Under the pieces are notes generated by a model. It did not search any database. It was not told the origin of the DNA and worked only from the letters and a program-made list of their open reading frames with translations. Both the position numbers and the translations under genes were made by a program. A stretch of DNA of 64,000 nucleotides from Streptococcus alactolyticus. GTDB taxonomy: Bacteria; Bacillota; Bacilli; Lactobacillales; Streptococcaceae. Shown piece by piece: positions 57,495 through 61,695 of this stretch. Location: contig NZ_JAAXMT010000003.1 of NCBI RefSeq assembly GCF_012277075.1, positions 62,001 to 126,000 on the forward strand. The letters run 5' to 3'. How positions within the stretch are numbered: the stretch's first letter is position 1; every line of letters starts with the position of its first letter.

Positions 57495-58700
57495 ATTAGT
57501 CGCGAAGTTAACTGGCAACAAAATCTCCGTATAGCTTGGCTCGGTAATTTCTTTACTGGGGCAAGCTTTTCACTTGTTATGCCATTCATGATTGTGTATA
57601 TTGAGGAATTAGGTGCTCCTAAGGATATGACTGACTGGTACGCTGGTTTGGCGGTTTCGCTGTCGGCACTAAGTTCAGCCTTGATTTCACCAGTGTGGGG
57701 GCGTTTTGCGGACCGTTATGGTCGTAAGCCAATGATGGTGCGGGCAAGTTTGGCCATGACCTTTACTATGGGGGGGTTAGCCTTTGTTCACAATGTGTAT
57801 TGGTTGTTGGCTTTGCGCGTGTTAAATGGTTTGCTTTCGGGTTATGTGCCCAATTCAACCGCTCTGATTGCTAGTCAAGTTCCCAAAGAACGTTCGGGTT
57901 ATGCTCTAGGAACCTTAGCAACAGGGGTTATTGGTGGAACCTTGGTGGGTCCTTTAATTGGTGGGGTATTAGCTCAGTGGCTAGGTATCCGCCACGTTTT
58001 TTTATTGGTCGGCTTTATCTTGTTACTTTGTAACTTGTTGACTTTCTTCTTTATCAAGGAAGATTTCAAGCCTGTTACCAAGGAAAAAGATTTATCAACC
58101 CGCGAAGTGTTTGAAGCAATTAAAGACAAACAAATCTTGATTGGCTTGTTTATCACCAGCATGACCATTCAAATTTCTGCGCAATCCATTGCTCCAATTT
58201 TGACCATGTACATTCGTCATTTGGGGCAAAAAGAAAATCTGATGTTTGTTTCAGGATTGATCGTTTCGGCGTTAGGTTTCTCAAGTATGCTTTCTAGCTC
58301 AAGCCTTGGAAAACTTGGGGATAAGATTGGTAACCACCGTTTGTTGCTTATTGCTCTTTTTTATAGTTTTTGCATGTATATCTTATCAGCCCTCTCCCAA
58401 AATACCCTCCAATTGGGAATTGTGCGTTTCTTCTACGGTTTTGGGACAGGGGCTTTGATGCCAAGTATCAATTCGCTTTTGAATAAGATTGCACCACGAG
58501 AAGGGATATCGCGAATCTTTAGTTACAATCAAACCTTTAGTTACTTAGGACAAGTTATTGGGCCATTCATTGGTTCAGCTGTTGCCACAGGTCTTGGCTA
58601 TCGTTCAGTCTTTTATGTAACCAGTCTGATTGTCCTAGCCAACTTTGTGTGGAGTTTGATTACCTTTAGAAAATATTTAACAGTTAAGGAAATAGTGTGA
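57495..58700 (+). CDS. MFS multidrug efflux transporter (PmrA-like), ATT start
   Basis: A 12-helix major facilitator. The A-motif [11 protein letters not shown] and 401-residue length match the pneumococcal PmrA drug pump, which is also followed by rpmG-secG. No ATG, GTG or TTG lies before residue 29. The reading frame from 57480 gives [22 protein letters not shown], aligning with the family start, and AGAAGGGG (57482-57489) is correctly placed for the ATT at 57495. The first standard start (57579) would lose most of the first membrane helix. So ATT is the likely initiator, or the start codon has mutated. Confidence 0.8.
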
Positions 58701-58843
58701 GAGTAAAGATTCATTTAACGTGTAGCAGTTGTGGTCAAAAAAATTATCTGACCAGTAAAAACAAAACCACCCATCCAGAACGGATTGAGGTACCCAAATA
58801 TTGTCCAAAAGAACGAAAAGTGACCCTACATATTGAATCTTGA
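58697..58843 (+). CDS. rpmG: 50S ribosomal protein L33
   Basis: A 48-residue protein, [18 protein letters not shown], ending [15 protein letters not shown]. It has C9, C12 and C36; the fourth zinc cysteine of a full CxxC pair is absent, as in some other Firmicute copies. It uses a GTG start overlapping the transporter stop (GTGTGA), with AAGGAA before it. Confidence 0.92.
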
Positions 58844-58878
58844 TAAGTTTTATGTTAAAATAGTATTGACCATAGTGT

Positions 58879-58922
58879 AGGAAGGAAAAAAGAATGCTTC
58901 GGTATTCTTGATGGCATAAATG
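58879..58922 (+). promoter_or_regulatory. Ribosome site separated from the secG start by a UUCG hairpin
   Basis: AGGAAGGA (58879-58886) is 33 bases from the secG ATG (58920). Between them an 8-bp stem, AAGAATGC / GTATTCTT (58890-58909, one wobble), is capped by C-TTCG-G, the very stable UUCG tetraloop. Folded, 13 bases remain. A two-codon ORF (ATG GCA TAA, 58911-58919) ends right at the secG ATG. Confidence 0.62.
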
Positions 58923-59156
58923 TACGACTTTTTATTAACCGTTTTACTGATTTTATCAGTTATTATTGTGATTTCGATTTTAATGCAACCACAAAAGAAT
59001 CCAAGTAGCAATGTCTTTGATAGTAATAGCTCTGAAGCTTTGTTTGAGCGTACAAAGGCACGTGGCTTTGAAGCATTCATGCAACGTTTTACAGCCATTT
59101 TGGTTTTCTTTTGGTTAGCCATTGCTTTAGTACTAGCAATCTTATCAAGTAACTAG
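58920..59156 (+). CDS. secG: Preprotein translocase subunit SecG
   Basis: A 78-residue protein with two membrane helices (about 2-22 and 57-76) joined by a loop with SSNVFDSNSSEALFERTKARGFEA, the SecG pattern. It stimulates SecYEG-dependent export. The start MYDFLLTVLL matches streptococcal SecG. Confidence 0.93.
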   Translation: MYDFLLTVLLILSVIIVISILMQPQKNPSSNVFDSNSSEALFERTKARGFEAFMQRFTAILVFFWLAIALVLAILSSN

Positions 59157-59158
59157 AT

Positions 59159-59190
59159 AGCGGTTAGGGACGGACTTTGTCTTAGCCGCT
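59159..59190 (+). other. Hairpin after secG
   Basis: AGCGGTTAGG pairs with CTTAGCCGCT (some wobble) right after the secG stop. It lacks a T run, and a true terminator follows 25 bases later. Confidence 0.45.
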
Positions 59191-59215
59191 CATCTTGAAT
59201 GGTGTCTAAGAACTC

Positions 59216-59242
59216 ATGAGCTGGTCAGTCAGCTCATTTTTT
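59216..59242 (+). terminator. Terminator after secG
   Basis: ATGAGCTG / CAGCTCAT stem, loop GTCAGT, then TTTTT. Confidence 0.85.
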
Positions 59243-59245
59243 ATT

Positions 59246-59356
59246 ATGAATGAAAGTGGTAAAAGCGAGTTCACAGTACTTGCTTTTCCAAATCAAGAGA
59301 TTAAAGGTGAGGATATAAAAGGCTTTTTAGAGGAAAAAGCCAAAAAAGCAGTATGA
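59246..59356 (+). CDS. Possible 36-residue small ORF coupled to rnr
   Basis: MNESGKSEFTVLAFPNQEIK and 16 further residues, ending in a TGA that overlaps the rnr ATG (ATGA). No clear ribosome site precedes it, and it directly follows the secG terminator. rnr has no well-placed ribosome site of its own, so translation of this ORF might deliver ribosomes to rnr. It could also be the remnant of a longer gene. I recognise no family. Confidence 0.35.
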   Translation: MNESGKSEFTVLAFPNQEIKGEDIKGFLEEKAKKAV

Positions 59357-61695
59357 TGAATGACAAAATTATAACGTATTTAGAAACACGAGAAAAAGTG
59401 ACGGTGAATGAATTAGCCGAGGCTTTGGAGATGACTGGAGCTAAGAAATTTCCTAAGCTGATTAAGGAAATTTCAACCCTTGAAAGTCAGGGAAAGTTGC
59501 GTTTTAATGACGCTGGTATGCTATCTTTGCGTAAGAAACAAGAAAAGAAAAAAGAAGTTACCGTTACAGGGATTTTTCGAGCAAATAAGGCAGGCTTTGG
59601 CTTTTTAATCGTTGATGAGAATGAAGACGATATGTTTATCGGTCGCAATGATGTTGGCTATGCGATTGATGGGGATACGGTTGAGGCAGTCATTAAAAAG
59701 CCTGCTAACCGTTTGAAAGGAACAGCTGCTGAAGCTAAAATTGTTGGTATTGTGGAACGCAGCCTGAAGACTGTTGTGGGGAAATTTATCCTCGATGATG
59801 AAAAGCCAAAATATGCTGGTTACATCAAATCTAAAAATCAAAAAATCCAACAAAAAATTTACATCAAAAAAGAGCCCGTGGTCTTGGACGGAACTGAGAT
59901 TATCAAGGTAGATATTGACAAGTACCCAACGCGTGGCCACGATTATTTTGTCGGTCAAGTGCGTGATATTGTGGGACATCAAGGCGATGTGGGGATTGAT
60001 GTCTTGGAGGTCTTGGAATCGATGGACATCGTGTCTGACTTTCCAGATGATGTGCTTGCGGAAGCCAATGCTGTGCCCAATGTACCAACAAACAAAGATT
60101 TGATTGGGCGAGTGGATTTGCGTCAAGAAGTGACGTTTACCATTGACGGTGCGGATGCCAAGGACTTGGACGATGCCGTACATATTAAATTGCTTGATAA
60201 TGGCCATTTTGAATTGGGTGTGCATATTGCGGACGTATCTTATTATGTGACAGAAGGCTCTGCCCTAAACCGTGAGGCAGTGGCGCGTGGAACTTCTGTT
60301 TATGTAACGGACCGTGTGGTACCTATGCTGCCTGAGCGTTTGTCAAATGGAATTTGTTCCCTCAATCCAAATGTGGACCGTTTGACGCAATCTTGTCTGA
60401 TGGAAATCGATCGCAAGGGTCGTGTGGTCAATCACCAAATTTGCCAATCAGTGATTAACACCACTTTCCGCATGACTTATAGTGATGTCAATGCTATCCT
60501 TGCTGGGGATGACGAATTGGCAGAAAAATACCAGCCGATTGTTGAATCGATTCACCACATGGCTGATTTGCACGCCATTTTGGAGAAAATGCGTGTGCGT
60601 CGTGGGGCTTTGAATTTTGATACCAATGAGGCAAAAATTATCATCAATGATAAAGGGATGCCTGTGGATATCGTCTTGCGTCAGCGTGGTGTAGCTGAAC
60701 GCATGATTGAGTCTTTCATGTTGGCAGCCAATGAAACTGTAGCAGAACATTTCTCAAAACGCAAATTGCCTTTTATCTATCGTATTCACGAAGAGCCTAA
60801 AGCAGAGAAATTGCAAAAATTCCTTGATTATGCAAGTATTTTTGGCATTCACATTCATGGGACGGCCAATAAAATCACCCAACAAGCCTTGCAAGAATTC
60901 ATGGCTAAGGTGGAAAATAAGCCAGGTGCAGACGTTTTGAACATGATGTTGCTGCGTTCGATGCAACAAGCCCGCTATTCAGAACACAATCATGGGCATT
61001 ATGGTCTGGCAGCAGAGTATTATACCCACTTTACCAGCCCAATTCGCCGTTATCCTGACCTTCTGGTTCACCGCATGATTCGCGAATACACGCAGGTCAC
61101 TGATGAGAAAATCGAGCATTTCAGACAAGTTATCCCTGAATTAGCCACTTCCTCATCAACCCTTGAACGCCGGGCTATCGACGCTGAACGCGTAGTAGAA
61201 GCCATGAAAAAAGCAGAATACATGGAAGAATACGTTGGCGAAGAGTTTGAAGGTGTGGTATCTAGCGTTGTCAAATTTGGTCTGTTTATTGAATTGCCAA
61301 ATACCATTGAAGGGTTGATTCACATCACGACTCTCCCAGAATTTTACAACTACAATGAGCGTACCATGACGCTGCAAGGTGAGAAGTCTGGCAAGGTCTT
61401 TCGTGTGGGGCAACCAATTAAGATTAAGTTGGTTCGTGCCGACAAGGAAACAGGCGACATTGACTTTGAATACCTACCAAGCGAGTATGACGTGATTGAA
61501 AAAGTGAAAAAATCCCGTAAGGACCGCTCTAACAAGGACAAACGCCGACCAAAATCAGACCAAGCAAAGGACCACAAATCTAAAAAACGCAGAGGCTCTA
61601 AACCAGCTAAAAAAGCATCTAAAAAATCAGGTAAGAAACCTTTTTACAAAGAGGTTGCCAAGAAAAAAAACGTAAAAAGAAATAAGTCGCTATAA
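59353..61695 (+). CDS. rnr: Ribonuclease R
   Basis: A 780-residue 3'-5' exoribonuclease that degrades structured RNA and works with tmRNA. Domains: N-terminal winged helix (1-60), cold-shock OB domains (~65-230), catalytic RNB domain (TIDGADAKDLDDAVHI near 265, with the metal-binding Asp cluster), S1 domain (~630-710) and a Lys-rich tail. smpB follows, matching the functional link. The ATG at 59353 or 59356 may be used. Confidence 0.96.
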   Translation: MMNDKIITYLETREKVTVNELAEALEMTGAKKFPKLIKEISTLESQGKLRFNDAGMLSLRKKQEKKKEVTVTGIFRANKAGFGFLIVDENEDDMFIGRNDVGYAIDGDTVEAVIKKPANRLKGTAAEAKIVGIVERSLKTVVGKFILDDEKPKYAGYIKSKNQKIQQKIYIKKEPVVLDGTEIIKVDIDKYPTRGHDYFVGQVRDIVGHQGDVGIDVLEVLESMDIVSDFPDDVLAEANAVPNVPTNKDLIGRVDLRQEVTFTIDGADAKDLDDAVHIKLLDNGHFELGVHIADVSYYVTEGSALNREAVARGTSVYVTDRVVPMLPERLSNGICSLNPNVDRLTQSCLMEIDRKGRVVNHQICQSVINTTFRMTYSDVNAILAGDDELAEKYQPIVESIHHMADLHAILEKMRVRRGALNFDTNEAKIIINDKGMPVDIVLRQRGVAERMIESFMLAANETVAEHFSKRKLPFIYRIHEEPKAEKLQKFLDYASIFGIHIHGTANKITQQALQEFMAKVENKPGADVLNMMLLRSMQQARYSEHNHGHYGLAAEYYTHFTSPIRRYPDLLVHRMIREYTQVTDEKIEHFRQVIPELATSSSTLERRAIDAERVVEAMKKAEYMEEYVGEEFEGVVSSVVKFGLFIELPNTIEGLIHITTLPEFYNYNERTMTLQGEKSGKVFRVGQPIKIKLVRADKETGDIDFEYLPSEYDVIEKVKKSRKDRSNKDKRRPKSDQAKDHKSKKRRGSKPAKKASKKSGKKPFYKEVAKKKNVKRNKSL

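Follow-up and report, generated by a model that had tools for sequence, protein, structure and literature searches.

A hairpin between a distant Shine-Dalgarno sequence and the start codon of secG as a candidate split ribosome-binding site in a group of streptococci

How is the start codon of secG selected on a transcript whose strong Shine-Dalgarno sequence (SD), AGGAAGGA, lies 33 nt upstream of it (58887-58919)? This question is raised by the window, that is the whole stretch of 64,000 nucleotides of Streptococcus alactolyticus DNA analysed here, in which secG is flanked by rpmG and an RNase R-type gene (Table 1). The distance is occupied in large part by a small hairpin, whose 8-bp stem of seven Watson-Crick pairs and one G-U pair is capped by C(UUCG)G. 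Once the hairpin is removed, 3 + 10 = 13 nt remain between SD and ATG. Inspection of the sequence bears out the initial annotation of this locus with respect to the distant SD, the UUCG-capped stem and the restored 13-base spacing, and also its remark that ATG GCA TAA (58911-58919) abuts the secG ATG at 58920. The strength of potential SDs was determined from duplexes with a 17-mer representing the 16S 3' tail, which is present once in the window's genome. The best 9-mer lying wholly within the last 18 nt before the secG ATG reaches only -2.4 kcal/mol, as compared to -10.2 kcal/mol for AGGAAGGA.

Table 1. Features of the secG region in the window
Feature	Position	Strand	Basis
rpmG (ribosomal protein L33), GTG start, 5' neighbour of secG	58697-58843	+	ORF; Pfam Ribosomal_L33, E 2.8e-18
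Promoter-like site TTGAAT-17-TAAAAT, TG before -10 (extended -10)	58833-58861	+	promoter scan
SD AGGAAGGA	58879-58886	+	9-nt duplex with 16S 3' tail, -10.2 kcal/mol
Hairpin	58890-58909	+	sequence, folding, match to structure model built from sister species
Hairpin 5' arm AAGAAUGC	58890-58897	+	
Hairpin loop UUCG	58898-58901	+	
Hairpin 3' arm GUAUUCUU	58902-58909	+	
Mini-ORF M-L-R-Y-S-stop (ATG CTT CGG TAT TCT TGA)	58894-58911	+	sequence
Mini-ORF M-A-stop (ATG GCA TAA), abuts secG ATG	58911-58919	+	sequence
secG, 78 aa, protein-export channel subunit	58920-59156	+	ORF; Pfam SecG, E 3.6e-16
RNase R-type gene, third in row after rpmG and secG	59353-61695		RNB domain by Pfam

The leader contains a further start codon, which the initial annotation had not listed. 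This ATG (58894-58896) is located 7 nt after the SD within the 5' arm of the hairpin and opens the five-codon ORF MLRYS, whose UGA stop codon (58909-58911) shares one base with ATG GCA TAA. By ordinary spacing rules, no start on the transcript is better placed than AUG 58894. Judging from the promoter-like site upstream of secG, transcription probably initiates near 58868, ~10 nt ahead of the SD. Three promoter-like sites were found as compared to 2.5 expected by chance, and a -10 element resembling that of the window was seen by eye at the equivalent place in many relatives. Downstream, an ORF of 36-46 aa (59216-59356) is present between secG and the RNase R gene. It gave no match in Pfam or in the 40 other genomes searched, and its longer form starts within a terminator-like hairpin (59216-59237).

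Could such a hairpin occur by chance? Scanning of both strands of the 64-kb window for C(UUCG)G stems of at least 6 bp returned the secG hairpin as the sole case, and shuffling of the plus strand (n = 50) yielded on average 0.14 stems of this size and 0.04 stems of at least 8 bp. The hairpin 20-mer has a single exact copy in the genome, and one further place matches with at most three mismatches. The spacer (32/33 bases) folds with -6.9 kcal/mol (z -2.2), a value reached by 11 of 300 shuffled sequences, and folding of the transcript predicts the outer stem pair with a probability of 0.98 and an unpaired SD with 0.89, while the secG AUG is unpaired with a probability of only 0.56. The 61-nt stretch from 58870 to 58930 folds no better than its shuffled counterparts (z -0.26; 70/200 as low). 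The stability of the stretch is unexceptional, and it is therefore the place and the loop that make the hairpin special. An intrinsic terminator or attenuator was rejected as an explanation, as there is no T run and the hairpin is followed by GATGGCATAA; a terminator scan of 58650-59400 listed three sites, none of them at the secG hairpin. Likewise, a known structured RNA leader was dismissed, since no curated Rfam family matches the leaders tried, that is, the window at gathering score and leaders L001, L019, L017, L027 and L322 at E up to 1. Two exact patterns searched in viral contigs and one 501-base query searched in phages and plasmids remained without a match.

A comparison of the rpmG-secG gap across streptococci, as proposed in the initial annotation, was carried out with 284 genomes of the genus, 283 of which gave a secG leader (G128 lacks a SecG match). 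We read 189 of these leaders, namely 188 that were scored and that of G243, which has no insert; the remaining 94 were judged by match span alone, their match being 28 to 37 bases shorter than that of the window. The insert is absent in 271 of the 283 leaders, and in 12, including the window, a self-pairing insert is found at exactly the same place between SD and ATG, with the stem conserved. The 12 comprise the window (G000), nine sister species (G038, G039, G040, G043, G044, G079, G081, G180 and G278) as well as G134 and G050. Leaders of the nine sisters carry the motif GACGCGTTCTTAG, which occurs in exact form in 10 of the 284 genomes, in nine of them in the secG leader and in the tenth (G049) elsewhere.

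The two classes of leaders differ in their local SD, defined as a 16S-tail duplex that ends 2-13 nt from the start and reaches -6.0 kcal/mol or better. All 176 scored insert-free leaders possess such a site (mean -7.9 kcal/mol; the eight weakest at -6.0 kcal/mol, a value also found for G243), whereas none of the 12 hairpin leaders does. Their best local duplex amounts to -5.4 kcal/mol in the window and to -3.7 or -3.9 kcal/mol in the other eleven. The value for the window is not far from the weakest insert-free value, which counts against the split-site reading; the duplex in question is formed by the hairpin stretch and is not SD-like in appearance. Every hairpin leader has instead a far SD of -10.2 or -10.7 kcal/mol that ends 32-96 nt from the start. 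Reading of the leaders also revealed that in G029, G030 and G232 (L086, L088 and L111) the usual rpmG end is missing just before secG, and the upstream gene thus seems to differ in these genomes. In L127, L129-L134, L136-L140, L168-L172 and L176, the start nearest the SD begins with ATGAGCGGA rather than with the usual MYN-type sequence, and the SecG N-terminus thus seems to be variable within the genus.

The main argument that the hairpin does not count in the distance seen by the ribosome comes from the geometry of the 12 leaders. The linear distance between SD and ATG is 33, 73, 73, 73, 74, 74, 74, 83, 83, 83, 90 and 97 nt, and the hairpin measures between 20 and 80 nt (20, about 60, 70 and 72-80 nt), that of the window being the smallest. 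Subtraction of the hairpin leaves 13 nt in six genomes, the window among them, 14 nt in four, 17 nt in G050 and 18 nt in G134. Since the linear length varies nearly threefold while the remainder is near-constant, the ribosome would appear to see the distance minus the hairpin. With an effective spacing of 13-14 nt in 10 of the 12 leaders and no typical local SD in any of them, the comparison supports the idea of a spacing-restoring hairpin put forward originally for the window.

Is the structure itself conserved? The basal stem is present in the lowest-energy fold of the isolated spacer in all 12 cases, with z-scores between -1.3 and -2.9. We built a covariance model from the nine sister leaders only, leaving out the window. 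For every hairpin genome (n = 12), this model returned one match at E up to 1, always the secG leader, with 150 of the 436-854 candidates per genome scored. The nine builders obtained 93.6-110 bits, G134 27.2 bits, G050 25.9 bits and the window 25.3 bits (E 0.095 for its genome). The score of the window, near E 0.1, is convincing only by its place because two of eight other genomes searched also contain weak matches (E 0.19 and 0.30). One match in each of the 12 genomes, at the number of candidates given above, led us to reject a dispersed small repeat, BOX and RUP being names of such elements.

In an alignment of the 12 leaders, which was fitted to the covariance model and is thus biased towards it, 96% of the cells pair as compared to 30-53% with one arm slid. 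At the innermost position of the outer stem, the window has U-A and 10 of the 11 distinct rows have C-G, representing a two-sided change. A change of this kind affects 1 of 10 modelled pairs in a single sequence, a number reached by 132 of 500 shuffles. RNAalifold detected no pair changed on both sides among the nine sisters. Thus, covariation support for the hairpin is thin, and a stronger test is precluded because the outer stem is too invariant. Inspection of the inner stem by eye reveals C-G in G079, G039 and G180 versus G-C in G038, G278 and G040, and A-U versus G-C between G134 and G050. In an arm-swap control, the own inner arms formed 7 bp in G040 and G079, 6 bp in G044 and 10 bp in G134 and G050. 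Own arms performed best in G079, G134 and G050, while foreign arms did better with the 5' arms of G040 (up to 10 bp) and G044 (8 bp), because these arms are purine or pyrimidine rich.

To place the trait in the history of the genus, a tree was calculated from RNase R and transporter proteins of 28 chosen rows, 6 of which lack the transporter piece. It unites the window with the nine sisters in one clade (support 100/99), and G134 and G050 are placed in the next set together with six insert-free species (91/99, which is below the star threshold). This topology is in agreement with that of a quick tree of 53 RNase R rows. The hairpin trait needs three changes on the tree and two to three on bootstrap trees. 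The 12 hairpin genomes were grouped alone in 0 of 200 bootstrap trees; a constraint holding them together lowered the log-likelihood by 1.06 and was not rejected (p-AU 0.47). This outcome would fit one gain and two losses or, alternatively, two to three gains; we infer that the hairpin leader arose once. As to the identity of the sisters, the secG leaders of G040 and Streptococcus equinus Sb04 (L256) are identical to the letter. L256 was the only one with a SecG match at E<=0.001 among the at least 117 stretches listed by a pattern scan of genome contigs. Therefore, the nine sisters probably represent the S. bovis/S. equinus complex.

How may the leader then work? The reading we lean towards is that it acts as a split, that is hairpin-accommodating, ribosome-binding site of the type found in phage T4 genes 38 and 25. 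The 30S subunit would pair with the sole good SD 33 nt upstream of the secG AUG, and the UUCG hairpin would remain folded and be looped out, thereby presenting the AUG at a distance of 13 nt from the SD. AUG 58894, which the SD would otherwise serve, would be buried by the same fold, and the longish distance that remains may be offset by the strength of the SD. Pairing and a near-constant effective spacing are conserved among the 12 leaders. On this reading, which we infer, the hairpin would not unfold on the ribosome, and translation of secG would depend on the fold. However, in folds of longer transcripts the other eleven leaders yield weaker predictions than the window, both for the outer pair (probability 0.07-0.64) and for accessibility of the SD (unpaired with 0.23-0.67), and in G134 the likeliest partner of the outer-pair base is a different base. 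Moreover, ordinary rules would favour AUG 58894 over the secG AUG, which is itself unpaired with a probability of only 0.56; this also counts against a split site.

The precedent is provided by phage T4. According to PMC3014915, which refers to Nivinskas et al. 1999 and Malys and Nivinskas 2009 for these sites, structures between SD and AUG cut the spacing from 22 to 5 nt in gene 38 and from 27 to 11 nt in gene 25, destabilising mutations decrease initiation, and the arrangement of gene 25 is limited to close T-even phages. The secG leader resembles genes 38 and 25 in that the SD is over-distant in the linear sequence and a structure in between would shorten the spacing, and the restriction of the secG form to one part of the genus is reminiscent of gene 25. 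The remainder is longer in secG, where 33-97 nt would be reduced to 13-18 nt, rather than to 5 and 11 nt as in T4, and this counts against the split site. Further differences are that secG is a chromosomal housekeeping gene, that its hairpin varies about fourfold in size among species and is known here from sequence and prediction, and that a competing AUG is located inside the stem in the window. Escherichia coli thrS provides a second comparison: in this gene, autoregulation involves a hairpin located upstream of the SD, whereas the secG hairpin is placed between SD and AUG. In PMC3936740, the ribosome is reported to accommodate the long hairpin of the thrS split site without unfolding it, as we propose for secG. 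This paper was the only one retrieved from the open-access literature with 'split ribosome binding site' and 'Shine-Dalgarno'. Hairpins that shorten the SD-AUG distance turned up there in the two T4 genes only, and no title among the matches listed, two of which mention secG, deals with a secG leader. Because the literature covered was open-access only, this is weak evidence for novelty.

The two mini-ORFs suggest another route to secG, as ribosomes could start at AUG 58894, translate MLRYS, terminate and reach secG by re-initiation via the overlapping AUG GCA UAA. Indeed, ATG 58894 sits 7 nt past the -10.2 kcal/mol SD, and stops and starts overlap or abut all the way up to secG. Translational coupling through overlapping stop and start codons is a known system, which the secG leader resembles in this layout. 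However, the ORFs upstream of secG differ from such systems in having 5 and 2 sense codons and in not being conserved. G134 and G050 likewise possess a TTG 1 nt past AGGAAAGGA (7 nt past GGAGG), opening ORFs with 7 and 8 sense codons, respectively, and have another TTG at 11 nt; however, these ORFs differ in sequence from the mini-ORF of the window. No ATG, GTG or TTG is located at up to 14 nt from the SD in any of the nine sisters, yet hairpin and spacing are kept, and five of them lack any start codon within 20 nt. The other four have TTG at 15 and ATG at 18 nt (G278) or GTG at 18 nt (G044, G081 and G043), with ORFs of at most 8 codons. In addition, folding of the window's transcript predicts both starts to be largely hidden: the final two bases of AUG 58894 together with the following base are unpaired with a probability of 0.01, and ATG 58911 with 0.07. 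The initial annotation had suggested that ATG GCA TAA might add re-initiation control. The position of this ORF agrees with the idea, but conservation does not, as its counterpart in the nine sisters is GTG AAA CAT, GTG AAA AAT or GTG AAA AAG and reads through into secG. Since neither mini-ORF is conserved in the nine sisters, re-initiation is not the conserved feature; it may add to SecG output in the species of the window, but we regard it as an unlikely account of how secG is started. The GTG of the sisters follows shortly after the hairpin and precedes the secG ATG in frame by 9 nt (e.g. L019 1757-1768), and judged from the reading frame their SecG may carry three extra residues. In the window, an in-frame extension of SecG is blocked by TAA (58917-58919).

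Two further explanations address the hairpin itself. In the nine sisters, the leader could be regulated, with a protein, a small RNA, a metabolite or temperature switching the basal stem and the window representing a reduced form. This scenario would account for CTGACGCGTTCTTAGTGAAA, which is letter-identical in the nine despite differing inner arms and exceeds the needs of a mere spacer, although its identity is partly due to descent because the nine are close relatives. It would also find a possible switch in the lowest-energy folds of G079 and G038 that include the first secG codons: in these, GUGU before the SD pairs with ACGC on the hairpin's 3' side, which replaces closure of the basal stem (L002 1735-1827; L018 1735-1826 (minus strand)). 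However, the window has neither the motif nor the inner loop and retains the stem only, neighbouring species lack the insert altogether, and Rfam offers no family for the leaders tried, making regulation improbable in our view. A specific version, in which the basal stem sets the SD-AUG distance of a riboregulator, strikes us as quite improbable. Closure of the stem would allow SecG to be made, whereas its opening, by the GUGU-ACGC pairing or a bound factor, would leave the SD wasted or captured by a mini-ORF. If true, the supply of an export subunit would be tied to a cellular signal through a change in spacing rather than through hiding of the SD, and the window would represent a constitutive, UUCG-locked form. 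At the other extreme, the hairpin might be a neutral insertion, that is, a self-complementary insert is tolerated, its pairing is a remnant, and initiation at secG is inefficient or independent of an SD. Its confinement to one part of the tree, with closely placed species devoid of the insert, and the wide variation in hairpin size and inner sequence are in line with this possibility. Near relatives manage without a hairpin, and the leader might merely put up with an insert that folds away. However, a mere remnant fits less well with a basal stem and an effective spacing that are kept though lengths shift by tens of bases, or with a far SD (-10.2 to -10.7 kcal/mol) that exceeds the average local SD of insert-free leaders (-7.9 kcal/mol) in strength. 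We thus consider neutrality unlikely.

For annotation, the split site we favour carries a warning, as a gene finder relying on the usual spacing rule would choose the start of the five-codon ORF here. For the ribosome, the secG hairpins of 20, about 60, 70 and 72-80 nt, along with their hairpin-free neighbours, provide a natural series in which the limits of looping-out by the 30S subunit may be explored.
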